A DNA stretch of 64,000 nt from Sphingobium phenoxybenzoativorans (GTDB lineage: Bacteria > Pseudomonadota > Alphaproteobacteria > Sphingomonadales > Sphingomonadaceae), in the NCBI RefSeq assembly GCF_001757355.1, contig NZ_MINO01000007.1:1-64000 (forward strand). Reading direction: 5' to 3'. Shown here piece by piece: positions 1-45,211 of this stretch (within the stretch, counting starts at the first letter, position 1; the number at the start of each line of letters is the position of its first letter). The notes under the pieces are model-generated. The model saw nothing but the letters and a program-made list of their open reading frames with translations, did not search any database and had not been told where the DNA came from. Position numbers and translations under genes: made by a program.

Positions 1-182
1 CCCGCCTGCGCGATCATGGAGGTTGCCCCGATGACGGAGCGCCGCGCCGCCGCCTTGCGGTCGATGGCCACTGCATCCTCCAGATCGATGATCACAGCGT
101 CGGCTCCGCGCGTCGCGACCTTGACCAGCCGCTGTTCGTCATCCGCTGGCACGAACAGCAGCGATCGCCAGAGCGGCCTCAT
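1..182 (-). CDS. CitE/HpcH-type aldolase-lyase, N-terminal part (runs off window edge)
   Basis: The reverse strand opens with an ATG at 180-182 and stays open for 60 codons to the window edge. The start (RSLLFVPADDEQRL) and the segment GADAVIIDLEDAV are the first strand and the acidic metal-binding motif of the HpcH/HpaI aldolase and citrate lyase beta family, which cleaves malyl-, citramalyl- or citryl-type CoA esters. The ATG overlaps the stop of the upstream hydratase (ATGA), so the two are translationally coupled. It is the last visible gene of the operon starting at 3299. Next to a CaiB CoA-transferase and a mesaconyl/itaconyl-type hydratase, a (citra)malyl-CoA lyase is the most likely role. 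The C-terminal part is not visible, so the substrate is open. Confidence 0.85.
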   Translation of the reverse strand, partial: MRPLWRSLLFVPADDEQRLVKVATRGADAVIIDLEDAVAIDRKAAARRSVIGATSMIAQA

Positions 183-1024
183 GCGGCGAAGTCCGCCTGC
201 GCCGTCATCGCCACACCAACCGGCCCGATCGCCCGCAATCTGGCCTGCCCGCTCTCACAGGCAAGGCCAAGGCGCATCTCCTCTCCGTCGAACATCGGCG
301 ACATGGCGCGAAAACTGTAGCGGGCAATTTTCCGCCCCGCCTTCTGCCGCAAAAGATGATCCATCAGCAGCGTCGCGATCAACGGCCCCTGCACCACGAG
401 GCCGGGATAGCCCTCCTCATCACGCGCATAGTCGCGATCATAATGGATGCGGTGGCTGTTGAATGTCAGAGCGGAATAGCGAAACAGCATGACCGGATCG
501 GGCGCAACGATCCGCACAACCTCATCGTCGCCCTCAACCGCTACCGCCGGCCGCGCCAGCGGCGCTCCGGGCGCGGCGGCCTCCCGGTATACGATGTCCT
601 GCTCCTCGACGATGGCCGCTTCTCCATCACGCTCGCCAATCTCATGCCTCACTGTGACGAACAGCATTTCGCCGGACCGCCCGCTCTTGGGCGTAGCGGC
701 AACAAGCGTCGAGATCCGGCGGATCGCTGCGCCCTTCACTATCTCGCGCCGGAACTCCACGCGGCTTCCCGCCCACATCCGGCGGGGAAGGTCGACATTT
801 GGCAACAGACCGGTGTCCGACCGCATCGGGTGCCCATCCGGTCCGACATTCGAATGCCGCGCATCGGGCTGAAAGCAGAGCCAGTGGCCAAGCGGCGGCA
901 CCATGCCCTCAAGCCAGGGCGGCTGATCATGATCCAGAGTCGCCGCCAGCCGGACGAAGCGTGCTGGGTCGGCAATATCCTCATCGACCTGACTGCGCCC
1001 GATGAAAGATTGCGGGTCCATCAC
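179..1024 (-). CDS. FAS1/HTD2-type hot-dog hydratase (mesaconyl-C4-CoA / itaconyl-CoA hydratase-like)
   Basis: 281 aa. The C-terminal half carries the MaoC-like hydratase signature NSHRIHYDRDYA followed by EGYPGLVVQGPL, which holds the His/Asp pair and the substrate-loop Gly-Pro of the HTD2/mesaconyl-CoA hydratase group. The N-terminal half is the second, degenerate hot dog typical of this roughly 280-aa family. Known members hydrate mesaconyl-C4-CoA or itaconyl-CoA to citramalyl-CoA. The start ATG at 1024 overlaps the stop of the CoA-transferase gene by 4 nt and its own stop overlaps the CitE start. The order CoA-transferase, hydratase, CitE supports hydration of a C5-type unsaturated dicarboxyl-CoA. 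A longer or alkylated substrate is equally possible. Confidence 0.85.
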   Translation of the reverse strand: MMDPQSFIGRSQVDEDIADPARFVRLAATLDHDQPPWLEGMVPPLGHWLCFQPDARHSNVGPDGHPMRSDTGLLPNVDLPRRMWAGSRVEFRREIVKGAAIRRISTLVAATPKSGRSGEMLFVTVRHEIGERDGEAAIVEEQDIVYREAAAPGAPLARPAVAVEGDDEVVRIVAPDPVMLFRYSALTFNSHRIHYDRDYARDEEGYPGLVVQGPLIATLLMDHLLRQKAGRKIARYSFRAMSPMFDGEEMRLGLACESGQARLRAIGPVGVAMTAQADFAA

Positions 1025-2136
1025 GCGAATTCCTTCCTGATATCTTGGCCATGGCTATCGAGAGCAGGCATGGCCATGGCCTCCCGCCCTTCATCCCGGA
1101 TGACCGGACTGGACGGCAGGCTGACCGGCCCGGCCGACCCTGATGCCAGTGTCCGCCGTAGTGCGGGATGGCGCGAAAGGCCGGCAATCTCGTTGACATC
1201 GGCCCAACCGACGCCCGCCGCCTCCAGACGATTGACGGCTTCTTCCCGGGCAATCCCGGAAAGGACAGCGCCAACCTTATCCTCCAGCGCCGTACGATTT
1301 TCCACGCGCTTCGCATTGGTGGTGAAGCGGGCATCGTCAGCCAGTTCCGGCTGCTCCATCACGGTGGCGCAGAACCGGCTCCATTCCCGCTCATTCTGCA
1401 CAGCGACAACAATCTGATGCCCATCCGAGCAAGCGAAGGCGCCATAGGGCGCGATGGAAGGATGATGAAGTCCCGTGCGGCGGGGCGCTTTTCCGCCATG
1501 TTCAAAATGCAGCAATGGCACAGTCATCCATTCCGCCAGCGCATCGAACAACGCGACGCTGATGCCCCGCCCCTTGCCCGTCCGCGTCCTTTCGAACAAG
1601 GCTTCCATGATTGCGGACGCCGCGTTCAGTCCCGCTGCAATATCGGCCACCGAGACGCCAGTGCGCGCCATGCTTTCTGCCGTACCCGTGGTCGCGGCCA
1701 GCCCGGCCTCGCATTGAATCAAAAGGTCATAGGCTTTCTTGTCCCGCCACGGGCTATCCGCGTCATACCCCATGATGTCGCAGGTAATGAGAGTGGGATG
1801 GCGCTCACGCATTTGCGCCGAGCCAAAACCCGCCCGCTCGGCCGCCCCCGGTGCCAGATTCTGCACGAATATGTCGGCCCGCGCCAACATCGCCTGCAAC
1901 AGGGCCGCATCCGCCGGCTGCCGGAAATCCAGCACGATCGACTCCTTGCCCCGGTTCAACCAGAGGAAATAGGCGCTGTCGCCGTCCACAATATGGTCAT
2001 AGGACCGGGCGAAATCTCCTTCCGCCCGCTCGATCTTTATCACGCGCGCCCCGGCGTCCCGCAACCGCTGCGTACATAATGGGGCAGCCACCGCCTGTTC
2101 GATGGCGACGACCAATATGCCGTCGAGCGCGCCCAT
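1021..2136 (-). CDS. CaiB/BaiF family III CoA-transferase
   Basis: 371 aa, normal for a single-domain family III CoA-transferase. The N-terminus (GILVVAIEQAVAAPLCTQRL, then GARVIKIERAEGDFAR) is the nucleotide-fold part that binds CoA. The expected catalytic Asp that forms the acyl anhydride is D165 in VSVADIAAG, at the position of Asp169 of formyl-CoA transferase. The enzyme moves CoA between carboxylic acids, either between two acids or within one diacid as in mesaconyl-CoA C1-C4 transferase. It lies directly after the acyl-CoA dehydrogenase, whose stop shares its first codon region (both at 2136), and overlaps the hydratase by 4 nt. Substrate not readable from the sequence. Confidence 0.9.
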   Translation of the reverse strand: MGALDGILVVAIEQAVAAPLCTQRLRDAGARVIKIERAEGDFARSYDHIVDGDSAYFLWLNRGKESIVLDFRQPADAALLQAMLARADIFVQNLAPGAAERAGFGSAQMRERHPTLITCDIMGYDADSPWRDKKAYDLLIQCEAGLAATTGTAESMARTGVSVADIAAGLNAASAIMEALFERTRTGKGRGISVALFDALAEWMTVPLLHFEHGGKAPRRTGLHHPSIAPYGAFACSDGHQIVVAVQNEREWSRFCATVMEQPELADDARFTTNAKRVENRTALEDKVGAVLSGIAREEAVNRLEAAGVGWADVNEIAGLSRHPALRRTLASGSAGPVSLPSSPVIRDEGREAMAMPALDSHGQDIRKEFA

Positions 2137-3299
2137 CAGAAGGACTTGGGCAGACCCAGCGCATGGGTTGCGACGTGACTCAATATCAGGTTCGTGCTGA
2201 TCGGCGCGACCTGATACAGCCGGGTCTCGCGGAATTTGCGTTCCACATCATATTCCTCGGCAAATCCGAAACCGCCATGCGTCTGAACGCACATGTCGGC
2301 CGCATACCAGCTTGCCTCAGACGCCAGCATCTTTGCCATATTGGCCTCCGTGCCGCACGGGATTCCCGCTTCGAACATGGCGGCCGCCTTGTTGACCATC
2401 TCGGCGGCGGCGGTCAGTTGCACATAGGCGCGGGCGATAGGAAACTGGATACCCTGATTTTGGCCGATCGGCCGGCCGAACACCGATCTCTCCGTCGCAT
2501 AGGCCGACGCGCGATCTATGAAGAAGCGGCCATCCCCGATACATTCGCTGGCGATCAGGATGCGCTCGGCATTCATTCCGTCCAGAATATATTTGAACCC
2601 TTTGCCCTCCTCGCCGATCAGATTGGCGGCGGGAACGCGAAGATCATCAAAGAACAATTCCGTTGTCGCATGATTGAGCATTGTGCGGATCGGCCTGATC
2701 GTCAGGCCATTGCCCAAGGCTTGCTGCATATCGACGAGCAGCACCGAAATGCCATCGGATGGTTTGGCGACTTCCTCACGTGGCGTTGTACGAACGAGCA
2801 GGACCATAAGGTCGCTATGTTCCGCCCGGCTGATCCATATCTTCTGTCCATTCACGACATAATCGTCGCCGTCACGCCGCGCGAAGGTGCGGATGCGGGT
2901 CGTGTCCGTTCCGCTGGTCGGTTCGGTCACGCCGAACGCCTGAAGGCGCAACTCCCCGGTCGCAATCTTGGGAAGATAGGCAGCCTTCTGTTCTGCCGAT
3001 CCATGTTTCAGCACCGTACCCATGGTATACATTTGCGCATGGCACGCGCCCCCGTTGCAGCCCGAACGATGGATTTCCTCAAGAATGGCGGTGGCCGCAC
3101 CAAGCCCCAAGCCCGAACCGCCAAACTCCTCCGGGATAAGGACCGACAAAAAACCCTCGCGGGTCAGGGTATCTACAAAGGCCGTCGGATAGGTCCGGTC
3201 CCTATCCAGCTCTTGCCAGTAGGTTCCGGGGAAATCGGCGCACAGCCTGCGGACGGACTCCCGGATTTCCGGAAAGCTCTGCTGTTCGTGCGCACTCAT
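2136..3299 (-). CDS. acyl-CoA dehydrogenase with IVD-type active-site glutamate
   Basis: 387 aa from the ATG at 3299, chosen because AAGGAG stands about 8 nt upstream; in-frame starts up to 3338 lack such a site. The order is the ACAD family's: alpha-helical N-terminus, the FAD-contact segment TEPTSGTDT, substrate-domain motif NGQKIWIS, and the C-terminal helix with QTHGGFGFAEEYDVER. The usual catalytic Glu near the C-terminus (YEGT in MCAD) is absent: the equivalent stretch is LYQVAPIST. A Glu occurs instead in MNAERI (E245), the place used by isovaleryl- and long-chain acyl-CoA dehydrogenases, which suggests a branched substrate. First gene of the operon running to position 1, divergent from LysR. 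Confidence 0.92.
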   Translation of the reverse strand: MSAHEQQSFPEIRESVRRLCADFPGTYWQELDRDRTYPTAFVDTLTREGFLSVLIPEEFGGSGLGLGAATAILEEIHRSGCNGGACHAQMYTMGTVLKHGSAEQKAAYLPKIATGELRLQAFGVTEPTSGTDTTRIRTFARRDGDDYVVNGQKIWISRAEHSDLMVLLVRTTPREEVAKPSDGISVLLVDMQQALGNGLTIRPIRTMLNHATTELFFDDLRVPAANLIGEEGKGFKYILDGMNAERILIASECIGDGRFFIDRASAYATERSVFGRPIGQNQGIQFPIARAYVQLTAAAEMVNKAAAMFEAGIPCGTEANMAKMLASEASWYAADMCVQTHGGFGFAEEYDVERKFRETRLYQVAPISTNLILSHVATHALGLPKSF

Positions 3300-3369
3300 C
3301 TCTGTCTCCTTTGTGCGCTGCATCCGCATATTGGCCACACCTGTCCAACACCCCCTCGCGCTTTCAGCT

Positions 3370-6346: not shown

Positions 6347-7138
6347 TTACCGGCCTTTGAAGGCGGGAGGGCGCTTCTCCTTGAAAGCGCTCACGCCCTC
6401 TCGATAGTCACTGGTCAATCCCAGCCGCCGCTGGGCATCGCGTTCATGATCGAGTTGATCGTCAAAAGTCGACGTCCACGACCGCCGGATAGCGCGTTTG
6501 GTCTCCATCAACCCGGCGGTCGGCGCCGCCGCAAGCGTCACCAGCAGCTTTTCAACTTCCATGTCGAAAGCCTCATCATCAACGGCTTTCCAGATCATGC
6601 CCCAATCCGCGGCCTGACTGGCATCGACAGGCTCCCCGGTCAAAGCCATCGCCATAGCGCGCGGATTGCCAACAAGATGCGGGAGAGTCCAGGTCCCGCC
6701 GCTATCGGGCAGCAAGCCGATCTTGGCGAATGCCTGGATGAAGCGCGCACTGCGTTTTGCGATCACAATGTCAGCAAGCAGGGCAATATTTGCTCCTGCC
6801 CCCGCCGCCACGCCGTTTACGGCGCAGATCACGGGAAAGGGCAAAGCGACGATCCGGCGGACCAGAGGATTATAGTAGGTTTCGATATTATGGCCCAGGT
6901 CAAGCGGCGCATCACTCTCGACATTACGCTCTGCCAAATCCTGACCGGCGCTGAATGCGCGCCCCGCGCCCGTGAGCAATATCACCCGGACCGAACCGTC
7001 CGCTTCCAGAGCATCCAGCGCCCGCATCAGCGCCTCATGCATACCCACTGTAAATGCATTAAGCCGGTCCGGCCGGTTGAGCGTTACCCGCCCCACACCC
7101 CCGTCGATAGACAGTAGAACTGGCGGATCCTCGTTCAT
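6347..7138 (-). CDS. crotonase, PaaG-like (epoxyphenylacetyl-CoA isomerase type)
   Basis: 263 aa, full-length crotonase. Oxyanion-hole segments are AFSAGQDLAERN and NGVAAGAGANIAL. The following KIGLLPDSGGTWTLP places Asp145 where PaaG of phenylacetate catabolism has its catalytic Asp, and YYNPLVRRIVALPFPVICAV is also strongly PaaG-like. PaaG converts ring-1,2-epoxyphenylacetyl-CoA to the oxepin and also moves enoyl-CoA double bonds. No paaABCE epoxidase genes lie in this window, so here it may act as a delta3/delta2-enoyl-CoA isomerase or on a different epoxide. Its start overlaps the stop of the acyl-CoA ligase gene by 4 nt (ATGA); it is the last gene of the operon from 9516. Confidence 0.9.
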   Translation of the reverse strand: MNEDPPVLLSIDGGVGRVTLNRPDRLNAFTVGMHEALMRALDALEADGSVRVILLTGAGRAFSAGQDLAERNVESDAPLDLGHNIETYYNPLVRRIVALPFPVICAVNGVAAGAGANIALLADIVIAKRSARFIQAFAKIGLLPDSGGTWTLPHLVGNPRAMAMALTGEPVDASQAADWGMIWKAVDDEAFDMEVEKLLVTLAAAPTAGLMETKRAIRRSWTSTFDDQLDHERDAQRRLGLTSDYREGVSAFKEKRPPAFKGR

Positions 7139-8706
7139 GCCTGCACCTCGGAACGCGCTTCCCTGGCAAGCAAGTCAGCGCGCAGTTCGTTCTTCAATAT
7201 CTTGTTTGCGCCACTAAGCGGCAGAGGGGTAAATCGCACTTCGACTGATCGCGGACATTTGAACCCGGCGATCATTGACTTGCAATGGTCGATCACCTGC
7301 TGCGGCTCGATTGACACACCGGACACGGGTACGACGACCGCGTGAACGGCTTCGCCCCAGCGCGCATCCGGCCGGCCGAATACTGCACATTGTTGTATGG
7401 ATGGGTGCGCGGCGATGGCGTTTTCAACCTCCTGCGAATAGACATTCTCACCGCCGGAAATGATCACATCCTTCAGACGGTCGACGACATAGAGATAGCC
7501 GTCACCGTCCAGATAACCGATGTCGCCCGTATGCATCCATCCGCCGCGCAACGCCTCTGCCGTAGCATCAGCCTGCCGCCAATATCCCAGCATGACCATA
7601 GGCCCGCGTACGACAATCTCTCCCCGCTCCCCGGCCGGAACTGGAACACCAGATGGATCGACCACCGCAATGTCCGCAAGCAGCGCCGGACGGCCCGCGG
7701 ATCGCAACAATCCCTTCGCCGCCATCTCCGGCATATGTTCACGCCAGCCCAGCATCGTTGCGATTGGCGACGTCTCCGTCATCCCATAGGATTGGACGAA
7801 CCGGACATCCGGCAATCGCGTCATCACTTGCCGCAGCAACGCCTCCGGCATGGCCGCCGCGCCATAGGTGATGTAGCGCAGCGAGGACAGATCAGCGCTT
7901 GCTATCTCCGGCTCATCCAGCAAAGCGCGCAGCATCGTCGGCACAAAAGTCGCCAGCGTCACGCGATGCCGGGCGATCACGGACAGAACTTCGCCCGCGA
8001 CGAAGCGCGGCAGAACGACATGCGTGCCCGCAGCCTGCGTCACCGAAAACAGCCTGACGCCCGCCGCAACATGGAATAGCGGGCCGCAATGGAGGTGAAC
8101 CGTGCGCTCATCCATACCGATGTGCGATATAAAATTCGCCGAATTGGCGAGGATATTGGCATGGCTGAGCATCACGCCCTTGGGCGCTCCGGTCGTGCCT
8201 CCGGTGTAAAACAGACAGGCAAGGTCATCGCCTCCCCGCCCCGCGTCCGGTACGGCCTGCGCGACCGCCAACGCCGCCTCATAAGCGGTCATGCCATCTG
8301 GCGCCGGGCCATCCGCACAATGGATGATGGCGGACACCGTTCCACCCGATGCATGCTTCAGTTCGCCAGCAAATTGCGCAAAGTCGGGACCAAGAACGAT
8401 AATCTTCGGCCCAGCATCAGCAATCTGCGCTGCAATCTCCTGCACAGATAGCCGGTGATTGAGCGGCGTTATCACGCCTCCCGCATGCAGCGCAGCGAAA
8501 TAGCATTCCAGCGACCGGTGGCTGTTCAATGCAAGCAAGGCGACGCGATCCCCCGTCTCCAAACCGAGCGATTTGAACATGCCCGCAAGCCGCGCGGTCC
8601 GGTCCGCAAACTGCGCCCAACTGAACTGCGCGTCACCGTCGAGGATCGCCACGCCCTGCGGACGCATCAAAAGCGCGCGCCGCATTCCCTGCGTCAGTCC
8701 AATCAT
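7135..8706 (-). CDS. AMP-forming acyl-CoA ligase (class I adenylate-forming)
   Basis: 523 aa from the ATG at 8706, which has GGAG 10 nt upstream; a TTG at 8715 is less likely. The adenylation core motifs are in order: YTGGTTGAPKGVMLSH (P-loop), SYGMTETSP, GGWMHTGDIGYLDGDGYLYVVDR, then the hinge DRLKDVIISGGENVYSQEVE and the C-terminal Lys in PLSGANKILK. All residues needed for adenylate formation and thioesterification are present. Substrate not readable, but a carboxylate from side-chain oxidation fits. Middle gene of SDR-ligase-PaaG; the SDR lies 57 nt upstream and the PaaG-like gene overlaps its end. Confidence 0.92.
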   Translation of the reverse strand: MIGLTQGMRRALLMRPQGVAILDGDAQFSWAQFADRTARLAGMFKSLGLETGDRVALLALNSHRSLECYFAALHAGGVITPLNHRLSVQEIAAQIADAGPKIIVLGPDFAQFAGELKHASGGTVSAIIHCADGPAPDGMTAYEAALAVAQAVPDAGRGGDDLACLFYTGGTTGAPKGVMLSHANILANSANFISHIGMDERTVHLHCGPLFHVAAGVRLFSVTQAAGTHVVLPRFVAGEVLSVIARHRVTLATFVPTMLRALLDEPEIASADLSSLRYITYGAAAMPEALLRQVMTRLPDVRFVQSYGMTETSPIATMLGWREHMPEMAAKGLLRSAGRPALLADIAVVDPSGVPVPAGERGEIVVRGPMVMLGYWRQADATAEALRGGWMHTGDIGYLDGDGYLYVVDRLKDVIISGGENVYSQEVENAIAAHPSIQQCAVFGRPDARWGEAVHAVVVPVSGVSIEPQQVIDHCKSMIAGFKCPRSVEVRFTPLPLSGANKILKNELRADLLAREARSEVQA

Positions 8707-8763
8707 CACGCGCAACTCCGCTCAAAGCAGTTTTGGACGATCCGCTTCGTCACTATCTGCCTC

Positions 8764-9516
8764 TCAGACCTCAAGAGGAAAGCCTCCCGACACCCGCAAA
8801 GTTTCCCCGGTGATGAAACTCGCCTTGTCCGAACAAAGGAACATCGCCGCGTCTACGATATCGCCGGGCAGGCCCTGACGCTTGAGCAGTTGCAGATCAT
8901 TGATGAAATGGCTGATCATATCGGATGGAAGGTCGGCCATGACCGACTCTGTCGCCATCAGCCCCGGCGCCACGGCATTGACCCGGATATTGTCACGAGC
9001 AAACTCACGGGCAAGACTGACGGTCAGCCCGCGCACGGCGAGCTTCGACAAGCCATAGGGCCCAGGTATCGTATATCCTGCAATCGACGCCAGGTTGAGA
9101 ATGACGCCACCCCCGCGCCGGGCCATTGCAGACCTGACCGCCACCGAGCAATTGATGACGCCCATGACATTCACTTCCAACACAGCACGGACATCCGCTC
9201 TCGATATGATGGAAAAGTCTGTGCTGTACCGGTTGGCCAGAAGCCCCGCATTGTTGATCAGGATGTTCACACCACCCAGCGTTTCGACAATATGGGCGAC
9301 CGCCGAGTCGACCGCTTGTTCGTCGCTGACGTCACAGGAAACGGCACTGCACGATGCGCCATCGGCGGAAAGGGAGTTGGCTGCGCGTCGCGCCTCATCT
9401 CCGTCCCTATCCAGAATCACAACCGTTGCGCCAGCGGCGCATAATGCCTGTGCAAAGCCAAAACCGAATCCGCGCGCGCCTCCGGTGACGATAGCTATCT
9501 TATCTTTATGCTCCAT
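8764..9516 (-). CDS. short-chain dehydrogenase/reductase
   Basis: 250 aa from the ATG at 9516, preceded by GAGG; the longer frame to 9588 would run through an operator palindrome. Classical SDR: TGGARGFGFGF cofactor loop, NNAG, Ser in LASIAG, YGLSK. It closely resembles the SDR at 54143-54889: both have the IAGYTIPGPYG/VAGYEVDTGYG type region, the FIND/FINE-xQLxKRQG substrate lid and the ending FITGETLxVxGG. The two therefore probably act on similar substrates. First gene of the reverse operon with the ligase and PaaG-like isomerase; the operator at 9529-9538 stands 12 bp before the start. Confidence 0.9.
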   Translation of the reverse strand: MEHKDKIAIVTGGARGFGFGFAQALCAAGATVVILDRDGDEARRAANSLSADGASCSAVSCDVSDEQAVDSAVAHIVETLGGVNILINNAGLLANRYSTDFSIISRADVRAVLEVNVMGVINCSVAVRSAMARRGGGVILNLASIAGYTIPGPYGLSKLAVRGLTVSLAREFARDNIRVNAVAPGLMATESVMADLPSDMISHFINDLQLLKRQGLPGDIVDAAMFLCSDKASFITGETLRVSGGFPLEV

Positions 9517-9528
9517 CACCTCGACATA

Positions 9529-9538
9529 TTGCATGCAA
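9529..9538. promoter_or_regulatory. TTGCATGCAA operator (perfect), reverse SDR-ligase-isomerase operon
   Basis: Perfect palindrome 12 bp upstream of the SDR start at 9516, so close that it would overlap the leader or ribosome-binding region. It is one of a pair with 9633-9642 in the 154-bp divergent gap. Confidence 0.75.
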
Positions 9539-9632
9539 AATTGCTTGTCCATATTTTCCGAAAGCGGCTTGCCTGAGAGAACGGTCATTAAATTAACTGA
9601 ATACGCTTTTAATCAGGCTTTTCAGAAATGAG

Positions 9633-9670: not shown

Positions 9671-10564
9671 ATGATTGAGAAAACCCGTGTGAACGACTTT
9701 GACCAACGGCGCATCACATTTGCGGGCGCACATGGCCTGACCATCGCTGGGACAGCGGTCGGCCCTACCGATGGACTGCCGGTCATTCTTTCGCATGGCG
9801 GTGGACAAACCCGATATGCCTGGGGCCGTACGGCGCATTCTTTGGCGGAGTTGGGCTTCCTTGCAATCTCGCTGGATTTGCGTGGCCATGGGGAAAGCGG
9901 CTGGATGTCGTCCGGCCTTTACGTGATCGAAGATTATGCCGAGGATTTGCGGCTATTCTCTGCGACTCTGGCCCGCCCGCCTATACTGGTGGGCGCATCA
10001 CTGGGTGGCATAGCGTCGCTTCTGGCCGCCGGTGAGCCGGCCTATGCTCCGATTTCAGGCCTATGCCTGGTCGATGTCTCACCCCATCTCAAATCCGACG
10101 GCGTGGCCGGCATATTGGGCTTTATGAGAGAGACCAGCAAAGGCTTCGACACGCCTGAACAGGCGGCGGACGCCATTGCCGCCTATGTCCCCCATCGCCC
10201 ACGCCCCACAGACATTGAGGGCCTGAGAAAGAATTTGCGGGAGGGAGAAGACGGCCGATTTTACTGGCACTGGGACCCGCAGACAATTGCCAGGCCGCTT
10301 GAACCGGAACGCACAAGCAAGCGGCTGGAGCAGGCGGCGGCGCATATAGATGCGCCAGCGCTGCTGCTACGCGGCGAGTTGAGCGAACTGGTGACCGCAG
10401 ATGTCGCCAAAAACTTCATGGCGCTGTTCAACAGGGGTGCGACCGTCGACATCCCCGGCGCGCGACACATGGTTGCGGGGGACAGAAACGATTTGTTCGG
10501 CAGGGAACTGATCGCCTTCGCAGAAAATATACGAAACGAGAGGACAGGGGATGTTGGCCAATAA
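9671..10564 (+). CDS. alpha/beta-hydrolase
   Basis: 297 aa. The order is that of the alpha/beta-hydrolase fold: oxyanion loop SHGGGQTRYAWGR, strand with LDLRGHGESGW, nucleophile elbow GASLGG (Ser at about residue 112), a helical lid around residues 150-220, and the terminal His in PGARHMVAGD. It could cleave a lactone, ester or C-C bond of a ring-opened product. The ATG at 9671 has AGGAA about 6 nt upstream. It overlaps the start of the DUF35 gene by 14 nt and heads the operon hydrolase-DUF35-thiolase-fold lyase. The DUF35/lyase context suggests that it handles a CoA-linked or lactone intermediate. The substrate is not known. Confidence 0.9.
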   Translation: MIEKTRVNDFDQRRITFAGAHGLTIAGTAVGPTDGLPVILSHGGGQTRYAWGRTAHSLAELGFLAISLDLRGHGESGWMSSGLYVIEDYAEDLRLFSATLARPPILVGASLGGIASLLAAGEPAYAPISGLCLVDVSPHLKSDGVAGILGFMRETSKGFDTPEQAADAIAAYVPHRPRPTDIEGLRKNLREGEDGRFYWHWDPQTIARPLEPERTSKRLEQAAAHIDAPALLLRGELSELVTADVAKNFMALFNRGATVDIPGARHMVAGDRNDLFGRELIAFAENIRNERTGDVGQ

Positions 10565-10964
10565 TGCGCCGTTACCGGTTCTGACGCCGGAGACGGAGGC
10601 TTTCTGGACTGGAGGCTGCGAAGGGAAGCTGATGATTATGCGGTGCGCGCAATGCATGCGCCGACATCATCCGCCCAGCCCGGTATGCCCCCATTGCTAC
10701 AGCGAACGGGTAGCGCCTGAAGCCGTATCGGGCCGCGCGAAGATCGCCAGCTTCACCGTAAATCACCAGAAATGGCTACCCGACATGAAGGTGCCGTTCG
10801 TGATCGCCATCGTTGAATTGGATGAACAGCCGGACATCCGGATAACCACAAATATCGTCAACGCGCCGCCGGAGACGATACATATTGGCCAGTCCGTCCA
10901 AGTGTTATTCGAACAGCATGAGGATGTGTGGCTGCCCCTTTTCCAGCCGGAGAAAGGCGCATGA
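10551..10964 (+). CDS. DUF35 OB-fold/zinc-ribbon acyl-CoA partner protein
   Basis: 137 aa with the standard DUF35 plan: an N-terminal helix (LTPETEAFWTGG), a rubredoxin-like zinc ribbon with Cys32, Cys35, Cys46 and Cys49 (RCAQC and VCPHC), and an OB fold (IASFTVNHQKWL to VLFEQHEDVWLPLF). DUF35 proteins bind thiolase-fold partners and help place acyl-CoA, as in the Ltp2 aldolase of steroid side-chain breakdown and in HMG-CoA synthase complexes. The gene directly precedes a thiolase-fold gene, overlapping it by 4 nt (ATGA), which fits a stoichiometric complex. No catalytic role of its own is expected. Confidence 0.92.
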   Translation: MLANNAPLPVLTPETEAFWTGGCEGKLMIMRCAQCMRRHHPPSPVCPHCYSERVAPEAVSGRAKIASFTVNHQKWLPDMKVPFVIAIVELDEQPDIRITTNIVNAPPETIHIGQSVQVLFEQHEDVWLPLFQPEKGA

Positions 10965-12142
10965 CATTTGGCGAGAAACAGGTCGCCATCACCGGCATAG
11001 GCCAGTCGGAGATCGCCCGCCCCTCCTCCCGGTCGGCGCTCCTGCTGACCATCGATGCCATTCTGGCGGCCATTGAGGACGCCGGTCTTACGCCCGCCGA
11101 TATAGACGGGCTGACGACTTGGCCTGGCCGGATGGATAGCGACCCAGGTTTTGGCCCGGTCGGCACTACGGACATCAAGGAAGCGTTGGGCCTGAAGCTC
11201 AATTATTTTGCCGGCGGAAAGGAAGCGCCCGCTCAATTCGGTGCAGCGATCAATGCGATCGGCGCGATAGCGGCGGGATTGGCCCGCCATGTGGTCGTGT
11301 TCCGCACAGTTTACGAAGCCACCACCCGCAAGCAGACGGGCGCTGGCACTGCATTTGGCACCGCGCGCGTTCCGGACGCCCGTTTTCAGTGGCAATTGCC
11401 GATGGGCGCGATGTCCGCATCAAACTGGACCGCTCTCTACGCCCAGCGGCATTTTCATGATTACGGCACCACGCGCGAACAGATGGCGCAGATTCCGCTC
11501 AACTGCAGGCGGAACGCGGCCCTTAATCCCAAGGCGATATATCGCACGCCGCTGACTCTCGACGATTATATGGGCGCGCGGATGATTTCGACGCCGCTCT
11601 GCCTTTATGACTGCGACGTGCCGGTGGATGGGGCGACCGCGATTATCTTCTCACGCGCTGATGCCGCCGGCGACCTTCGCCATGCACCGATCAGGCTGGA
11701 AGCCGTTGGATCGGCGCTGCACGGCCGCGACAGTTGGGACCAGCGGGCGGACCTGACCAGCATGGCGGCGTTCGACGCCGCGAAGATGATGTGGTCCCGC
11801 ACCGATATGAAGCCGTCGGATATCGACACCGCGCAACTCTATGACGGTTTCACGATCCTGACGATGCTCTGGCTGGAAGCGCTGGGCTTTTGCGGAAAGG
11901 GCGAGAGCGGCGCCTTCATTGAAGAAGGCACCCGCATCGCGCTGGCAGGCGAATTGCCCCTGAATACATCCGGCGGACAATTGTCCGAGGGCCGCGTGCA
12001 CGGCTACGGCTATCTCCACGAAGCATGCCTGCAACTGCGCGGCACCGCTGGAGCGCGGCAGATTGCGAAGCCTGTAAATACTGCGGTTGTGGGAACAGGA
12101 GGCGGCCCATTGGCCTCCTGCATGCTGCTACGAAACGATTAG
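10961..12142 (+). CDS. thiolase-fold protein, SCP-x/Ltp2-like (probable retro-aldol lyase)
   Basis: 393 aa from the ATG at 10961 (ATGA overlap with DUF35); an upstream in-frame ATG at 10928 lies inside that gene. The fold is thiolase: VAITGIGQSEIARPSSRS at the start, QLYDGFTILTMLWLEALGF, NTSGGQLSEGRVHGYGYLHE near the end. The first-half nucleophilic Cys of true thiolases is missing: the stretch APAQFGAAINAIG stands where it should be. Together with the DUF35 partner this points to the Ltp2 type, which cleaves a beta-hydroxyacyl-CoA by retro-aldol reaction using Tyr residues. Tyr in QLYDG and HGYGY are candidates. A non-cleaving acyl-binding role is not excluded. Confidence 0.85.
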   Translation: MTFGEKQVAITGIGQSEIARPSSRSALLLTIDAILAAIEDAGLTPADIDGLTTWPGRMDSDPGFGPVGTTDIKEALGLKLNYFAGGKEAPAQFGAAINAIGAIAAGLARHVVVFRTVYEATTRKQTGAGTAFGTARVPDARFQWQLPMGAMSASNWTALYAQRHFHDYGTTREQMAQIPLNCRRNAALNPKAIYRTPLTLDDYMGARMISTPLCLYDCDVPVDGATAIIFSRADAAGDLRHAPIRLEAVGSALHGRDSWDQRADLTSMAAFDAAKMMWSRTDMKPSDIDTAQLYDGFTILTMLWLEALGFCGKGESGAFIEEGTRIALAGELPLNTSGGQLSEGRVHGYGYLHEACLQLRGTAGARQIAKPVNTAVVGTGGGPLASCMLLRND

Positions 12143-12194: not shown

Positions 12195-13367
12195 TCATAA
12201 TGCTTCGAAGATCGTCACATTGGCCAAACCGCCGCCTTCGCACATGGTCTGAAGGCCGTAACGCCCTTTGCGCTGGCGCAGCGCATGAATGAGCGTGGTC
12301 GCGAGTTTCGCGCCCGACGCGCCCATGGGATGCCCAAGCGCCATTGCACCGCCATGCACATTCAACCGCTCCAGATCAGCGCCGATAGCTTTCGCCCAAG
12401 CAAGCGGCACTGGGGCGAAAGCCTCATTCACTTCATAGAGGTCAATGTCCTGAATTGACATTCCGGCGGCCTTGAGCGCGCGCTCGGTTGCAGGAATAGG
12501 CGTTTCGAGCATGATCACCGGGTCGCCGCCCAGTACGGTCATCTGGTGGATGCGCGCCAGTGGAGCGACATTCAACGATTTCAGCATTGCCTCGCTGACA
12601 ATCAGGACGCCGGCCGAACCATCGCAAATCTGGCTGGAACTGGCGGCGGTGACCAGCCCATCGGGTAGCACCGTCTTCACCGCCCCAATCGATTCCGGCG
12701 TAGCGTCGAACCTTATGCCTTCATCGACATCGTGCGGAACTGCATTGCCTTCAGCATCGACACCCGAAACGGACAGGATTTCCTTCGCGAACAACCCGCT
12801 TTCGGTCGCGGCGATGGCGCGCTTGTGGCTGGACAAAGCCAACGCATCGCAATCGGCGCGGGAAAAGCCATATTTGGCCGCCATCATTTCCGCGCCCTTG
12901 AACTGATTGTACGCAAAGCCGGGGCGGCGCTCCAGCATCACGGGGCTCATCGGTCCGCCCCAGCCCTTTTCGTGGGCCAGCGTGTAAGCCGAACTCATTG
13001 GAACGCGCGTCATGCTCTCGACACCGGCGGCGATGACAGCCTGGGCGCTCCCGGCGATCACCGCCTGCGCAGCGAAATGGATCGCCTGCTGGGACGATCC
13101 GCATTGACGGTCGACCGTCACGCCGGGCACTGTTTCGGGCAGGTTCGACGACAATATGGCCTGACGGGCGACGTTGAACGCCTGCTCGCCGACCTGGGTG
13201 ACGCATCCCATGACAACATCATCTACCTGGGCGGGGTCGATTCCGGATTGTTCGACCAGCGCGTCGATCACGCGGCCGGACAAATCAGCCGGATGCCAGT
13301 TCCTCAGACGCCCACCCCGGCGGCCTCCGGCTGTGCGGGTAGCGGCGACAATATATGCTTCAGCCAT
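12195..13367 (-). CDS. acetyl-CoA C-acyltransferase (thiolase, FadA type)
   Basis: 390 aa with a complete thiolase active site: nucleophile Cys89 in VDRQCGSSQQA, NEAFAP, the His of GGAMALGHPMGASG, and the acid/base Cys in TMCEGGGLAN. It removes acetyl- or propionyl-CoA from a 3-ketoacyl-CoA. The QCGSSQQ form of the nucleophile loop is common in thiolases of steroid and other side-chain degradation, but this does not fix the substrate. It lies 38 nt downstream of an HSD10-like 3-hydroxyacyl-CoA dehydrogenase, so the pair performs the last two steps of a beta-oxidation round. Both would be expressed from the promoter with the 14220 operator. Confidence 0.93.
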   Translation of the reverse strand: MAEAYIVAATRTAGGRRGGRLRNWHPADLSGRVIDALVEQSGIDPAQVDDVVMGCVTQVGEQAFNVARQAILSSNLPETVPGVTVDRQCGSSQQAIHFAAQAVIAGSAQAVIAAGVESMTRVPMSSAYTLAHEKGWGGPMSPVMLERRPGFAYNQFKGAEMMAAKYGFSRADCDALALSSHKRAIAATESGLFAKEILSVSGVDAEGNAVPHDVDEGIRFDATPESIGAVKTVLPDGLVTAASSSQICDGSAGVLIVSEAMLKSLNVAPLARIHQMTVLGGDPVIMLETPIPATERALKAAGMSIQDIDLYEVNEAFAPVPLAWAKAIGADLERLNVHGGAMALGHPMGASGAKLATTLIHALRQRKGRYGLQTMCEGGGLANVTIFEAL

Positions 13368-17742: not shown

Positions 17743-18411
17743 TCAACCCGGCAGCGAAAGCACGATGGACGCGCCAGTAATGCATGCGGCATCGGCGGAA
17801 ATAAGCAAGGCAATGGCGCGCGCAGCGCCACTTGGCGTCACCCAGCCCGACCTGTCCGCATCGGGCATATCCCGCCGATTGGCTGGCGTATCGATGATGG
17901 TCGGCAATATCGCATTCACACGGACACCACGACCCCGCAATTCGTCCGCCAGGCTTTCGGTAAGCGCTTTGACTCCAGCCTTGGAAGCCGCATAGGGCGC
18001 CATCCCCATGCCGGCGGCGTTGGCGGCAGCCGCTCCGACATTTACGATGGACCCACCGCCGTTTGCCAGCAGATGCGGTATCGCCGCACGCGCTGATACC
18101 GCTGCGGTGCGTAGATTCATGCGATACATACGGTCCCAGCTATCGATGCTTCCGCCGTCGACCGGTTCCCATATGAAACCACCGGCAACATTGACGACCG
18201 CATCCAGTCCACCGAGATTTGCGGTGACCTCAGAATATGCCTTTGTGACCGAAGCCTCGTCGGCTAGGTCCACGCCCCCCTGGACGACAGATGCCGCTCC
18301 GGCCTCCGCGGGCGCCATATCGACAATCGCAACCTGCATGCCCCGCGCAGCGAGTTCCGCCGCAACGGCTTTTCCCAACGCGCCCAGACCGCCAGCGACC
18401 AATATTCTCAT
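17743..18411 (-). CDS. short SDR lacking the catalytic serine (dihydropteridine-reductase-like pattern)
   Basis: 222 aa, shorter than the other SDRs. The N-terminus AGGLGALGKAV is a variant Rossmann loop, and YAASK (Tyr140, Lys144) is present. The residue 13 positions before the Tyr, normally the catalytic Ser, is Ala127 in NVGAAAAN. The same loss occurs in dihydropteridine-reductase-type SDRs, so catalysis without the Ser is possible. The gene lies 8 nt behind the P450 at 18420 and is probably cotranscribed with it, which suggests that it acts on the P450 product. It converges with the ligase gene. Confidence 0.85.
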   Translation of the reverse strand: MRILVAGGLGALGKAVAAELAARGMQVAIVDMAPAEAGAASVVQGGVDLADEASVTKAYSEVTANLGGLDAVVNVAGGFIWEPVDGGSIDSWDRMYRMNLRTAAVSARAAIPHLLANGGGSIVNVGAAAANAAGMGMAPYAASKAGVKALTESLADELRGRGVRVNAILPTIIDTPANRRDMPDADRSGWVTPSGAARAIALLISADAACITGASIVLSLPG

Positions 18412-18419
18412 AGCGCGGC

Positions 18420-19637
18420 CTAATTCCTGCGCCAGCTCAGCGGGAGATACAGCATGGCGTTATTCTTCCCCGATTCAGCGATGACCTTCTCCCCCGCCTT
18501 GATCTGAAATTCGGGAATGCGGGCGAACCAATGCTCCAGGAATGTCCGAAGCTCCAGACGCGCGAGGTGCGAACCCAGGCAACGATGTGGCCCGCTTCCG
18601 AAAATCATGTGCGCCTTGTTCTCGCGATGAAAATCAATCGTCATGGGATCGGGGAACTGCCTGTCGTCAAGTCCGAACAAGGTCGTCGAAAGCAGGACTG
18701 GGTCACCCGCGCGCATCTCGATGCCCTTAAACTGCATATCGTTGCGGACCATCCTCGCAAGATTGGTGACACCGTGATAGCGCAGCAATTCTTCCACAGC
18801 TTCCGGGATCAGCGATGGGTCATCAGCCAGTTGCCGCTGATGCTCAGGATGGGTCGCCAGAAAGCGCATTGAGAAGCCGAGTTCGGCAACGACCGTATCA
18901 AGCCCGGCGAACATCAGATTAATGCACATGCTGAAAACTTCCTGCTCGGTGGCAGGACGTCCCTGTATCGTGCTGTCGATTACCTTCGTCGCCAGATCGT
19001 CCCGCGGCGTGCGGCGGCGGTCGTCCAACTTTTCACTCAGATAGGCGATCATCGCATCCATTGAGGATTGAACCTGCGCAGGATCAGGACTGCGTGTCTG
19101 GTCCTCGACCAGGGGCAGCAGCATCGCTGCATCCTCCATCGGGAAACCCATCATACCAAGGAACACGGCGATTGGGAGCCGTTGGGCCACGGCCTCCTGA
19201 AATTCGCATTCGCCGTCCGCAATGAAGCCTTCAATCAGATTGGCGGACAGATCACTGACGATCTGCTCGTAATTTCTGAGAGCCTTTGGAGAGAAGGCCG
19301 GCGCCAGGGCATTGCGATAGTCGCTAAGCTCGGGTGGATCATATTCCGCAGGCGCAAACCTGAAGCCGGTATTGACATAGGGTATGGAGACGATCTGACT
19401 GGAGAAAAGATCGTAGTTCCGATACGCTTCCTGAATATCCTCGGCACGGGTGAACACCCAATGGCCGCCATTGCGCGGCGTGTAGAAAATATCGGGGCCA
19501 TCATGAAACTGGTGCCACGTCTTGTGGATATCTCCGTCGATCGCATTCATATCGAATACGTCGAAATCACGCACCAGCCCGGCGGCAACATGGGGCGGCG
19601 GTGAGCTTGGCACGGTTAGCTTCGCGTGCGTGGTCAT
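18420..19637 (-). CDS. cytochrome P450, CYP101 (P450cam)-like
   Basis: 405 aa. Haem-binding loop FGSGPHRCLGSHLAR with Cys353 as thiolate ligand, I-helix AGLDTVV with the acid-alcohol pair Asp247/Thr248, and K-helix Glu283-x-x-Arg286. The N-terminus (PPHVAAGLVRDFDVFD, then FYTPRNGGHWVFTRAEDI) and the helix-C region follow P450cam, the class I enzyme that takes electrons from a [2Fe-2S] ferredoxin. Paralogue of the P450s at 38029 and 56093. It hydroxylates an unactivated carbon, probably of an alicyclic compound. An operator variant lies 61 bp upstream, and an SDR follows after 8 nt. The likely redox partner is the ferredoxin at 21413-21733. Confidence 0.95.
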   Translation of the reverse strand: MTTHAKLTVPSSPPPHVAAGLVRDFDVFDMNAIDGDIHKTWHQFHDGPDIFYTPRNGGHWVFTRAEDIQEAYRNYDLFSSQIVSIPYVNTGFRFAPAEYDPPELSDYRNALAPAFSPKALRNYEQIVSDLSANLIEGFIADGECEFQEAVAQRLPIAVFLGMMGFPMEDAAMLLPLVEDQTRSPDPAQVQSSMDAMIAYLSEKLDDRRRTPRDDLATKVIDSTIQGRPATEQEVFSMCINLMFAGLDTVVAELGFSMRFLATHPEHQRQLADDPSLIPEAVEELLRYHGVTNLARMVRNDMQFKGIEMRAGDPVLLSTTLFGLDDRQFPDPMTIDFHRENKAHMIFGSGPHRCLGSHLARLELRTFLEHWFARIPEFQIKAGEKVIAESGKNNAMLYLPLSWRRN

Positions 19638-26694: not shown

Positions 26695-27549
26695 TTAGCG
26701 AACCTCCGCGCATCCATTCTGGATGACCGTTGCATTCCGCGCTTTGACCCGCGCCTGGAACGACACGAGGTCGCCGTCACGCCACAGATCGACGGTCACA
26801 ACATCCCCCGGATAGACAGGTGCGGAGAAACGCAGCTTGTGGCTCACCATCCGTTCCGGCTCGAATGCCGCATAATGCTGCAGGACAGCTCTGCAGCAGA
26901 TGCCGAAGGTGCAAAGCCCGTGTAATATGGGCCGGTCGAACCCCGCCCGGCGCGCAGCCTCTGGATCGGCATGCAGGGGATTACGATCCCCCGCCAGACG
27001 ATAGAGCAGCGCCTGATCGGCGCGCGTCACATAGTCCACGGATTTGTCGGGTGGCCGGTCCGGCACGATGTGAGGCGCAGCGCCTCCCGTTGCCGGGCCT
27101 CCAAAATGCCCGTCAGCGCGCGCGAACCATCCAACAGAAAGCGTGACATAAGGCGCGCCAGTCTCGGCATCCCGCAACGTGGTTTCGGCCATCAGTATGG
27201 CGCCCTTGTCGCCCTTATCGATGGCGGCGACGATGCCTCCATCCGCCTTCACGCGCGCAGACGCAGGTAGCGGCCTGTGCAGCCGGATTGCCTGCTCCGC
27301 ATGGACGACCCGGCTGTAATCGACACCGGTCTCCGCCAGTGGCGGGTTGGAGCCCCAGGCCGCAACCGTCGCAAAGGACGGAACGACCTTCAGATCCTTC
27401 TCATAGACAAAGGCCAATTCGTCCGTGTCCAACGGATCGCCCCCCATGCCTATGCCAAGGGCGTAGAGCATCGCGTCACGATCGCTCCAGACAAATTCGC
27501 GATCGGGGGATCGGACTTTCAACAGCGCTTCATAGGGAATCACGGGCAT
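26695..27549 (-). CDS. (R)-specific enoyl-CoA hydratase, MaoC / MFE-2 hydratase-2 type
   Basis: 284 aa, a double hot-dog protein. The C-terminal half holds the hydratase-2 motif YRLAGDRNPLHADP (catalytic Asp and His) followed by GFDRPILHGLCTFG. The N-terminal half (YALGIGMGGDPLD) is the substrate-binding degenerate repeat. This domain hydrates trans-2-enoyl-CoA to (3R)-hydroxyacyl-CoA, usually of branched or sterol-like side chains. Together with the MFE-2-like SDR at 20472 and a thiolase it would complete one beta-oxidation round. It has its own operator 27 bp upstream, between it and the GntR gene, so it is a separate transcription unit. Confidence 0.93.
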   Translation of the reverse strand: MPVIPYEALLKVRSPDREFVWSDRDAMLYALGIGMGGDPLDTDELAFVYEKDLKVVPSFATVAAWGSNPPLAETGVDYSRVVHAEQAIRLHRPLPASARVKADGGIVAAIDKGDKGAILMAETTLRDAETGAPYVTLSVGWFARADGHFGGPATGGAAPHIVPDRPPDKSVDYVTRADQALLYRLAGDRNPLHADPEAARRAGFDRPILHGLCTFGICCRAVLQHYAAFEPERMVSHKLRFSAPVYPGDVVTVDLWRDGDLVSFQARVKARNATVIQNGCAEVR

Positions 27550-44408: not shown

Positions 44409-45179
44409 TCAGGCGAGCGTGCGCGGATGGCCCAACAGGGAATTGCCGCCGCTGTAATTCCAGATCTGGCCGGTTTCGAAAAACTCGTCCCGCACCATCA
44501 TATAGACCATGCCGGCAATATCTTCCGGCCGGGACAGACGGCCGAGCGGTGTCAGGTCGATGAACGGCTTGGTGAAGGTATCGAAATCATAGCCATATTC
44601 ATCCAGCCCCTTGCGGAGCATGTTGGTGTCGTTGGTCGACGGGATGATCGCATTGATGCGCAGGCGCTTTTCCCGATATTCGACGGCGGCCGCCTGCACG
44701 AAACGGTCGGCGGCGCGCTTGGCCGCGGCATAGGCGGTGATGCCCGACAGCGTGTCCCACGCGGACAGCGACGAGGTGGTGACGATCGCGCCGTAATCGA
44801 CGATCCGTTCGGCCACCTGCTTGATGAACCACACCGTGCCGAAATAGTTGATCTTCGTCATCTTCAGCAGATGCTCCTCGGTGAAATCCCGGATGGAGCA
44901 GCGGTCCGAAAGACCGGCGTGATTGACCGCGATATGTAGGCCGCCATAGGTGTCGGCCGCAAAGTCGACCAGCGCCTTCACCTCCGCTTCCTTGGTGATG
45001 TCGGCCTCGAAAGCGGCGCCGCCGATTTCCTTGGCCAGCGCCTCCAGATTATCCTTGCCCAGACCCGACACGACGACAGTCGCGCCTTCCTTGGCCAGCC
45101 GCTTTGCGGTGGCCTCGCCCATGCCGCCCTTGGTCGATGCGCCCATGACGATGGCGATCTTGCCACTGAACTCACCCAT
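44409..45179 (-). CDS. SDR, tandem duplicate A
   Basis: 256 aa. The start KIAIVMGASTKGGMGEATAK has an enlarged Rossmann loop (GASTxGGMG), NHAG stands for NNAG, Ser lies in TTSSLSAWDTLSG and the Tyr-Lys pair in YAAAK. The stretch INAIIPSTNDTNMLRKG and the end SGGNSLLGHPRTLA are shared with the next gene, and the two 256-aa proteins align without gaps with roughly three of four residues identical by eye. They are a recent tandem duplication. Last gene of the long reverse operon, closed by the terminator at 44359-44387. Both probably act on one substrate class; which one is unknown. Confidence 0.92.
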   Translation of the reverse strand: MGEFSGKIAIVMGASTKGGMGEATAKRLAKEGATVVVSGLGKDNLEALAKEIGGAAFEADITKEAEVKALVDFAADTYGGLHIAVNHAGLSDRCSIRDFTEEHLLKMTKINYFGTVWFIKQVAERIVDYGAIVTTSSLSAWDTLSGITAYAAAKRAADRFVQAAAVEYREKRLRINAIIPSTNDTNMLRKGLDEYGYDFDTFTKPFIDLTPLGRLSRPEDIAGMVYMMVRDEFFETGQIWNYSGGNSLLGHPRTLA

Positions 45180-45211
45180 GTCCTTCTCCTTTCGCGATTG
45201 GATTGATTATG

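Follow-up and report, generated by a model that had tools for sequence, protein, structure and literature searches.

An overlapping gene set encodes a DUF35 protein and a Cys-less thiolase-fold protein

We examined a 64,000-nucleotide stretch of the Sphingobium phenoxybenzoativorans genome (contig NZ_MINO01000007.1; hereafter the window, to whose positions all coordinates refer) and focused on a gene pair encoding a DUF35 protein and a thiolase-fold protein predicted to act as an acyl-coenzyme A (CoA) lyase. Inspection of the open reading frames (ORFs) located the pair within a set of three overlapping plus-strand genes at 9671-12142, the first of which encodes a hydrolase.

9671-10564, plus strand: alpha/beta-hydrolase of 297 amino acids (aa), with its serine in GASLGG and its histidine in GARHM (Pfam Abhydrolase_6, E 9e-16)
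10551-10964, plus strand: stand-alone DUF35 protein of 137 aa, with a C-x2-C-x10-C-x2-C zinc ribbon and an OB fold, the presumed partner subunit (Pfam zf-ChsH2, E 1e-10; OB_ChsH2_C, E 6e-17)
10961-12142, plus strand: predicted thiolase-fold acyl-CoA lyase of 393 aa, of the YDGF and Arg345 type (Pfam Thiolase_C_1, E 4e-37)

The hydrolase gene overlaps the start of the DUF35 gene by 14 bases, and an ATGA at 10961-10964 is common to the DUF35 stop codon and the ATG of the thiolase-fold gene. The ORF list gives a longer form that begins with a GTG at 10928, but this extension is unneeded, since homologs from mycobacteria align from the first residue of the ATG form. In the Pfam scan, which accepted E values up to 0.001, the DUF35 protein exceeded the curated cut-offs for both of its domains (61.9 versus 27.1 and 41.5 versus 23.2 bits), and the thiolase-fold protein gave no match to Thiolase_N at E 0.001. 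Residues 89-101 of the latter read APAQFGAAINAIG. A description made earlier from the letters alone (the sequence-only reading) had proposed a DUF35 gene overlapping a Cys-less thiolase-fold gene, accompanied by an alpha/beta-hydrolase; the ORFs, the Pfam matches and the presence of Ala89 in the Cys column confirmed this arrangement.

Among solved chains, the best sequence match of the lyase was 6ok1_A (Ltp2; E 1e-60) and that of the DUF35 protein was 6ok1_B (ChsH2 DUF35 domain; E 6e-20). An AlphaFold2 model of the lyase, built from 14 sequences, had a mean predicted local distance difference test (pLDDT) score of 75.6 and a predicted template modelling score of 0.84, with low confidence at residues 129-152 and 336-346. 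Foldseek searches with this model returned 6ok1 first (E 5.9e-33), followed by 9myr (Sal) and 4u4e. In VIA-align comparisons, 6ok1 scored a Z of 42.3 (365 residues), ahead of 4u4e (40.3), Sal (39.5) and an archaeal thiolase (39.0), with classical thiolases at 28-30. Of the solved chains that the sequence and Foldseek searches retrieved, two, Ltp2 and Sal, are proven aldolases of this type.

The lyase carries a distinct set of active-site residues

In Ltp2 of Thermomonospora curvata (TcLtp2), Tyr294 of the YDHF motif is described as the base, His296 as part of the oxyanion hole and Tyr344 as the acid; in Sal of Comamonas testosteroni (CtSal), Tyr302 and Cys304 of YDCY are catalytic and Gln352 stands in place of Tyr344 (PMC12329534). 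To compare these positions, we used an alignment of 106 sequences, comprising the window protein, five solved chains and 100 distinct homologs. The homolog search yielded 131 frames at E 1e-6 with at least 180 residues aligned, of which 100 were kept after those identical over residues 30-300 were dropped; a weak paralog from the window's own genome (L007) fell below the limit and was left out. The following columns were read from this alignment.

11222-11227, plus strand: Glu88-Ala89, with Ala89 in the column of the thiolase nucleophilic Cys (Cys in 6esq)
11615-11617, plus strand: Asp219; Cys in TcLtp2, Val in CtSal and Ser in 6esq
11840-11851, plus strand: Tyr294-Asp-Gly296-Phe; Tyr294 corresponds to the base Tyr294 of TcLtp2 and Tyr302 of CtSal (roles from PMC12329534), and Gly296 replaces His296 of Ltp2 and Cys304 of Sal
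11870-11872, plus strand: Trp304; Gln in TcLtp2
11993-12001, plus strand: Arg345-Val-His347; the Arg345 column holds the acid Tyr344 of TcLtp2, Gln352 of CtSal and the His of the thiolase GH motif

YDGF together with Arg was found in 82 of the 106 sequences, window protein included. The other 24 comprised YDHF/Tyr (4), YDSF/His (3), YDDY/Gln (3), YDCY/Gln (2), YDCF/Tyr (2), YDAF/His (2) and eight single types, one of them YDGF/Tyr. The 82 sequences, hereafter the clade, were chosen by their Tyr, Gly and Arg motifs; Asp219 and Trp304, which lay outside this selection, were invariant in all 82. Furthermore, Cys was absent from columns 86-93 in every clade sequence, the nucleophile column being mostly Gly, Ala, Thr or Ser, and column 88 held Glu in 71 and Asp in seven. 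His347 was kept in 81/82. Among the 24 non-clade sequences, the commonest letters in column 219 were Cys (14), Val (5), Ser (2) and Ala (2), and column 345 read Tyr (9), His (9), Gln (5) or Glu (1). We take the Asp219 column to be that of the CoA-binding loop Ser in thiolases. Fourteen clade members on annotated plasmids showed the same Asp, Gly, Trp and Arg, with Asn for His347 in one. The loss of the nucleophile Cys throughout the clade, combined with the retention of Tyr294 and the invariance of Asp219, Trp304 and Arg345, speaks against a decayed enzyme.

The YDGF and Arg proteins form one clade

Phylogenies were inferred with the catalytic columns removed. The first tree contained 64 sequences, with the 82 clade sequences thinned to 40 at 82% identity; the second contained 48, including plasmid relatives and IpfD, the lyase of ibuprofen breakdown missing from the first, and represented the clade by 22 sequences (five plasmid sequences added later, 14 drawn at random). 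The clade formed one group in both, with support of 100/97 and 99/97, respectively, and a quick tree built on all columns gave it a Shimodaira-Hasegawa-like approximate likelihood ratio test value of 99. In the 48-sequence tree, the clade grouped with Ltp2-like proteins, IpfD and two further sequences, L135 and L136 (97/87), apart from Sal and the thiolase side, with IpfD on a long branch; the 64-sequence tree likewise put it with Ltp2 and apart from thiolases. By residues and tree, the lyase is not an Ltp2 but belongs to a widespread sister clade that has an active-site signature of its own.

Relation to known DUF35-partnered enzymes

With Ltp2-ChsH2(DUF35), the steroid C3 side-chain aldolase of T. 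curvata (6ok1), the window pair shares a thiolase fold without a nucleophilic Cys, a DUF35 partner with a four-Cys zinc site, the base Tyr in YDxF, and the GGQL and HG loop. The two lyases are 35% identical and differ in that His296, Tyr344, a Cys and a Gln of Ltp2 are replaced by Gly296, Arg345, Asp219 and Trp304; unlike ChsH2, the window DUF35 is a separate protein without a MaoC domain. The likeness to Sal-Shy(DUF35), the bile-acid C5 side-chain aldolase of C. testosteroni (9myr), lies in a DUF35-partnered lyase that lacks the thiolase nucleophile and keeps the same base Tyr, whereas the essential Cys304 of Sal is Gly296 in the window protein (YDCY to YDGF), Gln352 is Arg345, and Shy has a MaoC domain and a C3H1 zinc site (PMC12329534). 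The sequence-only reading had called the pair Ltp2-type and had pointed to candidate Tyr residues. That label holds for the best matches of both subunits by sequence and of the lyase by fold, for the missing Cys, for the adjacent or fused DUF35, for the base Tyr294 and for the grouping with Ltp2 and IpfD in the best tree; it fails at the second Tyr, at His296 and with respect to MaoC, which is neither fused to the DUF35 protein nor, among the genes scanned, encoded next to the pair.

A further relative is IpfD, which acts with IpfE to take off the acyl-CoA group during ibuprofen degradation (PMC9195938, PMC6063337); the term used in PMC9195938 is retro-aldolase in the introduction but thiolase further on. 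We assigned the two genes on Rhizorhabdus wittichii plasmid pIBU218 by gene order, ipfD being the gene for a 'hypothetical protein' that is flanked by the dioxygenase subunit genes and by the OB-fold and ligase genes. Like the window pair, IpfD-IpfE is a sphingomonad two-gene lyase/OB-fold pair that acts after a CoA ligase, and IpfD has no Cys in the aligned nucleophile column. In contrast, IpfD is 33% identical to the window lyase and reads YDAF with Tyr, IpfE is without the four zinc Cys, and the ipf gene row includes a ring dioxygenase. Given that IpfD reads YDAF with Tyr, a working lyase seems to tolerate variation at the third position of YDxF while retaining the second Tyr, which leaves Arg as the real departure. 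We rejected the window lyase as an IpfD orthologue acting on a drug or aryl-propionate: the pairs are of the same kind, but IpfD falls outside the YDGF and Arg clade in the 48-sequence tree. The ibuprofen plasmid also holds a second lyase pair (L144, 938-6123), which is Ltp2-like (YDHF with Tyr, 59% identical to TcLtp2) and lies with DUF35, crotonase, CaiB and alpha/beta-hydrolase genes.

Both 6esq (archaeal acetoacetyl-CoA thiolase-DUF35-HMG-CoA synthase) and 7pxp (benzoylsuccinyl-CoA thiolase BbsAB) likewise combine the thiolase fold with DUF35. However, 6esq has the Cys, HDCF and GH motifs in the aligned columns, where the window protein has Ala89, YDGF and Arg345. The structural-genomics entry 4u4e (Sphaerobacter, titled putative thiolase) resembles the window lyase in YDxF and in the absence of Cys from the aligned column, at 31% identity, and differs in having His in the Arg345 column.

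The lyase is linked to DUF35 across a widespread clade

In 73 of the 81 clade loci besides the window, tblastn placed DUF35 either in the reading frame of the lyase or on its strand at a distance of at most 200 bases, with flanks of only about 1.5 kilobases (kb) for many loci. Five of the remaining eight (L037, L074, L105, L116 and L117) gave no match in the stretch examined; in the other three, the nearest DUF35 was on the opposite strand (first copy of L070), separated by two acyl-CoA dehydrogenase genes (L073) or 277 bases away (L079). Moreover, DUF35 and the lyase are fused in a single frame in 10 proteins (L021, L118, L119, L124, L125, L131, L132, L151, L152 and L153), seven of them clade-locus proteins and three encoded on plasmids of Rhodococcus BH4, R. 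oxybenzonivorans and Streptomyces NBC_00080. There is good evidence that DUF35 and the lyase are a functional pair and, by likeness to Ltp2 and Sal, the two may form a complex; the natural fusions would offer a ready one-chain construct for structure work.

Matches at E <= 1e-90 occurred in at least 17 of 396 genomes of the order (at least 3 of 84 genera) and in 27 of 94 genomes of the genus, the window genome being counted in each. A scan of named genomes yielded at least 18 loci, of which 15 had identities of 51-80%; the hosts were Sphingomonas, mycobacteria, acidimicrobia, other actinobacterial metagenome-assembled genomes, a deltaproteobacterium and a Pseudomonas. The order search scored four candidates per genome and the named-genome scan relied on six short peptide patterns, so both give lower bounds. 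Plasmid records add Massilia, Caulobacter, Streptomyces and Rhodococcus as hosts of the clade. In two genomes of the genus, matches begin at coordinates identical to those of matches in the Sphingobium plasmid records RAC03 and V4, in keeping with a Sphingobium origin of the window. Two copies with starts 3-10 kb apart are present in at least six sphingomonad genomes (G150, G200, G217, G231, G319 and G385). Representatives of such two-copy sphingomonad stretches (L065-L070), when scanned, had cytochrome P450, aldehyde dehydrogenase and amidohydrolase gene clusters in common.

The block found in the window recurs in Sphingomonas formosensis (L008), with the ligase 70%, the hydrolase 70%, the lyase 80% and the thiolase 79% identical, and the DUF35 protein of this species (L107) is 70% identical to that of the window. 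Homologs of the window hydrolase (phmmer, E 1e-8) adjoin the pair in 2 of 43 places, namely the window and L008, and a third lies 3.1 kb away on the opposite strand in L021. With BLAST at E 1e-3, the window hydrolase matched neither the hydrolase of the Sphingomonas paeninsulae gene row nor that of the Mycobacterium branderi row. The hydrolase that had been grouped with the pair from the outset is thus a real gene of the window but not a general component, and we rejected it as a fixed third part. Beyond the L008 block, the gene neighbours vary. A relative of the window P450 is encoded no more than 3 kb from the lyase in 14 of the 43 places, several of which are near copies of each other, although not in the window itself; in Sphingobium RAC03, a P450 gene is directly upstream of DUF35. 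We regard the P450-lyase association as a lead only.

We also examined the surroundings of 14 of the best 17 plasmid matches (L138-L142 and L145-L153; 17-31 kb each). Three Rhodococcus stretches among them (L141, L147 and L150) are alike; of the other three matches, H8 and H10 seem to duplicate H7 and H9, and H13 is without annotation. Counted raw and anywhere in a stretch, a CoA transferase is annotated in 8/14 and an aldehyde dehydrogenase in 5/14, two of the latter being homologous Rhodococcus loci; an aldehyde dehydrogenase near the lyase is as expected if an aldehyde is released. On a Sphingopyxis macrogoltabida plasmid (L146, 6314-11049), annotated 2-hydroxyacyl-CoA dehydratase subunits and an activase adjoin the DUF35-lyase pair; enzymes of this type are usually anaerobic radical enzymes. 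The M. branderi gene row runs DUF35, hydrolase, aldehyde dehydrogenase, CoA transferase and lyase, so that three genes separate DUF35 from the lyase. This row resembles the Sal route, where oxidation of the aldehyde is followed by renewed attachment to CoA (PMC11321319).

Neighbouring genes in the window

The sequence-only reading had also named ligase, short-chain dehydrogenase/reductase (SDR) and PaaG-like genes as neighbours of the pair. All three were verified, on the minus strand, and a thiolase gene converges on the pair from the other side.

6347-7138, minus strand: PaaG-like crotonase, overlapping the ligase gene, a putative pathway partner (NCBIfam TIGR02280, 377.9 versus a cut-off of 345.15 bits)
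7135-8715, minus strand: acyl-CoA ligase, divergent neighbour, a putative pathway partner (Pfam AMP-binding, E 3e-87)
8764-9588, minus strand: SDR dehydrogenase, first gene of the divergent group (Pfam adh_short_C2, E 5e-56)
12195-13367, minus strand: ordinary thiolase with Cys (VDRQCGSS), convergent neighbour (Pfam Thiolase_N, E 9e-60; NCBIfam NF005077, over the cut-off)

The Cys-containing thiolase suggests that thiolysis is provided by a separate enzyme. No MaoC gene adjoined the operon among the genes scanned, the nearest candidates being at 182-1024 and 26698-27549. Overall, the window is catabolic in character and encodes three P450s, several SDRs, CoA ligases and CoA transferases, and a TonB-dependent receptor. 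Camphor-type CYP101 enzymes are the closest relatives of the P450 encoded at 18423-19637 (E 1.6e-85 to 3lxh), and an SDR gene at 17743-18411 adjoins it; this combination hints at terpenoid substrates.

A proposed retro-aldolase with an altered proton-transfer set

We propose that the pair is probably a DUF35-partnered retro-aldolase for beta-hydroxyacyl-CoAs with a differing proton-transfer set, so that the retro-aldol chemistry put forward in the sequence-only reading appears likely. The lyase most likely breaks C-C bonds in tough ring or branched compounds, using what would be an active site undescribed for its relatives. Cleavage would need neither a covalent Cys intermediate nor free CoA. 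Tyr294 would take the beta-hydroxyl proton, as proposed for the same Tyr in Ltp2 and Sal, where mutants were tested, and the C-C bond would then break to a thioester enolate, as in the relatives. Judging from position and conservation, Arg345, which stands in place of the acid Tyr344 of Ltp2 and is probably paired with Asp219, may stabilise the enolate, and Glu88, His347 or Arg345 itself may return the proton. DUF35 would shape the substrate cleft, as reported for the Sal complex. Such a reaction would be of use when the beta carbon cannot become a ketone, as in tertiary alcohols and ring alcohols, or when cleavage yields an aldehyde. The neighbouring CoA ligase, crotonase and SDRs could supply the substrate, for which a terpenoid, a steroid fragment or an aryl-alkanoate would fit the neighbourhood; in the weakest part of the scheme, the alpha/beta-hydrolase might open an ester or lactone upstream.

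A broader and more tentative proposal, which we hold to be possible rather than probable, is that the YDGF and Arg clade represents a separate catalytic class of DUF35-partnered acyl-CoA C-C lyases. Its members might employ the Arg345/Asp219 pair with Tyr294, and perhaps the Glu beside the lost nucleophile, instead of the Tyr-Tyr set of Ltp2 (and, by alignment, IpfD) or the Tyr-Cys set of Sal. The class would be widespread in sphingomonads and actinobacteria, would act mostly on non-steroid ring or branched substrates such as terpenoids, and could also supply C-C cleavage in sphingomonad pathways whose Sal/Ltp2 genes are reported as missing or uninduced. According to a 2021 review, bile-acid-degrading Sphingobium Chol11 and related Sphingomonadaceae yielded no homologs of Sal1, FadA5, Sad or Sal2/Ltp2, and their side-chain route is described there as unknown (PMC8399759); for the related Caenibius tardaugens, a 2026 report describes several possible Sal genes, none induced by cholate (PMC12882949). 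Possible origins of the differing catalytic residues of Ltp2 and Sal are discussed in PMC12329534. If the proposal is true, the existence of a large clade with a further strictly conserved set would reveal how frequently lyases have arisen from the thiolase fold; YDGF, GRxHG and DCD would serve as a marker to re-annotate 'thiolase family protein' genes, and the clade would offer new candidates for the enzymes that cleave C-C bonds when terpenoids, steroids and drugs are degraded.

Several observations weigh against the retro-aldolase assignment. The window lyase lacks the second catalytic residue that is present in Ltp2 and Sal and, by alignment, in IpfD, and Arg is a poor general acid at neutral pH. 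Four of the five AlphaFold2 models reached pLDDT values of only 43-58, and the Arg345-Asp219 pairing is drawn from the alignment because the model is weak exactly at the active-site loop 336-346. Ltp2 and Sal are accompanied by a MaoC hydratase, whereas none adjoins the window pair, and 9/14 plasmid stretches show no aldehyde dehydrogenase. A literature search, which misses most subscription journals, found no characterised member of the clade and no measured clade activity. In addition, an approximately unbiased (AU) test did not reject a tree in which the clade joins the thiolase side (p 0.268, log-likelihood 7.3 lower), so placement on the Ltp2/IpfD side is favoured but not proved. The sequence-only reading had named placement with acetoacetyl-type thiolases as an outcome that would count against it; the best tree puts the clade elsewhere, and the thiolase-side tree formally survives.

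The competing explanation that survives best, albeit an unlikely one, is that the substrate is a beta-keto or cyclic ketone acyl-CoA and that the DUF35-partnered enzyme is a lyase or hydrolase catalysing hydrolytic ring opening or decarboxylation, with Arg345 binding a substrate carboxylate and marking the substrate rather than the mechanism. Arg345 is indeed invariant in the clade (it was part of the selection, yet no clade row in the tree is without it), and FAH-type hydrolases and amidohydrolases occur in some clade neighbourhoods. Nevertheless, Ltp2, Sal and IpfD, the nearest characterised relatives, cleave beta-hydroxyacyl-CoAs, and Tyr294 is kept.

We consider it somewhat less likely still that the protein is an acyl-transfer or condensing enzyme (Claisen or Friedel-Crafts, as in PhlABC or the HMG-CoA-synthase-coupled thiolases with DUF35) with a relocated nucleophile, or a thiolase with another Cys. 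One candidate for such a nucleophile, Cys218, is invariant in the 40 clade rows, but its column is also Cys in Ltp2, with Cys in 18 of the 24 outside rows, and is therefore not specific. DUF35 also partners true thiolases and acylases (PMC12329534); 6esq, 7pxp and PhlC are among the sequence and fold matches, and the AU test leaves the thiolase-side branch standing. Against this, no clade sequence has Cys in the nucleophile column, Arg occupies the column of the GH His and Gly that of the HDCF Cys, and an ordinary Cys thiolase is encoded next to the pair.

A strict Ltp2 orthologue that removes the steroid C3 side chain as propionyl-CoA and a 17-ketosteroid, for which Ltp2 as the best match by sequence and Foldseek would speak, is highly improbable and was rejected on residues and tree, given the 35% identity, the absence of Tyr344 and His296, the separate clade, the lack of a fused MaoC-DUF35, and the separate occurrence of true Ltp2-like sequences (YDHF with Tyr) in L016, 3.3 kb from a clade member, and on pIBU218.

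Other features of the window

Three further gene groups were observed in the window. At 3-3338 on the minus strand lie genes for a FAS1-type dehydratase, a family III CoA transferase and an acyl-CoA dehydrogenase, and the frame at 3-182 resembles a CitE-type lyase by eye; we presume that these genes resemble a small dicarboxylate or itaconate-type module. A phosphotransferase (APH) gene and an acyl-CoA dehydrogenase gene adjoin each other at 58662-61089, a pairing that we take to be the arrangement of 4-hydroxy acid catabolism. Finally, 44409-45982 holds a tandem of two SDR-like genes whose first residues, compared by eye, are very alike.

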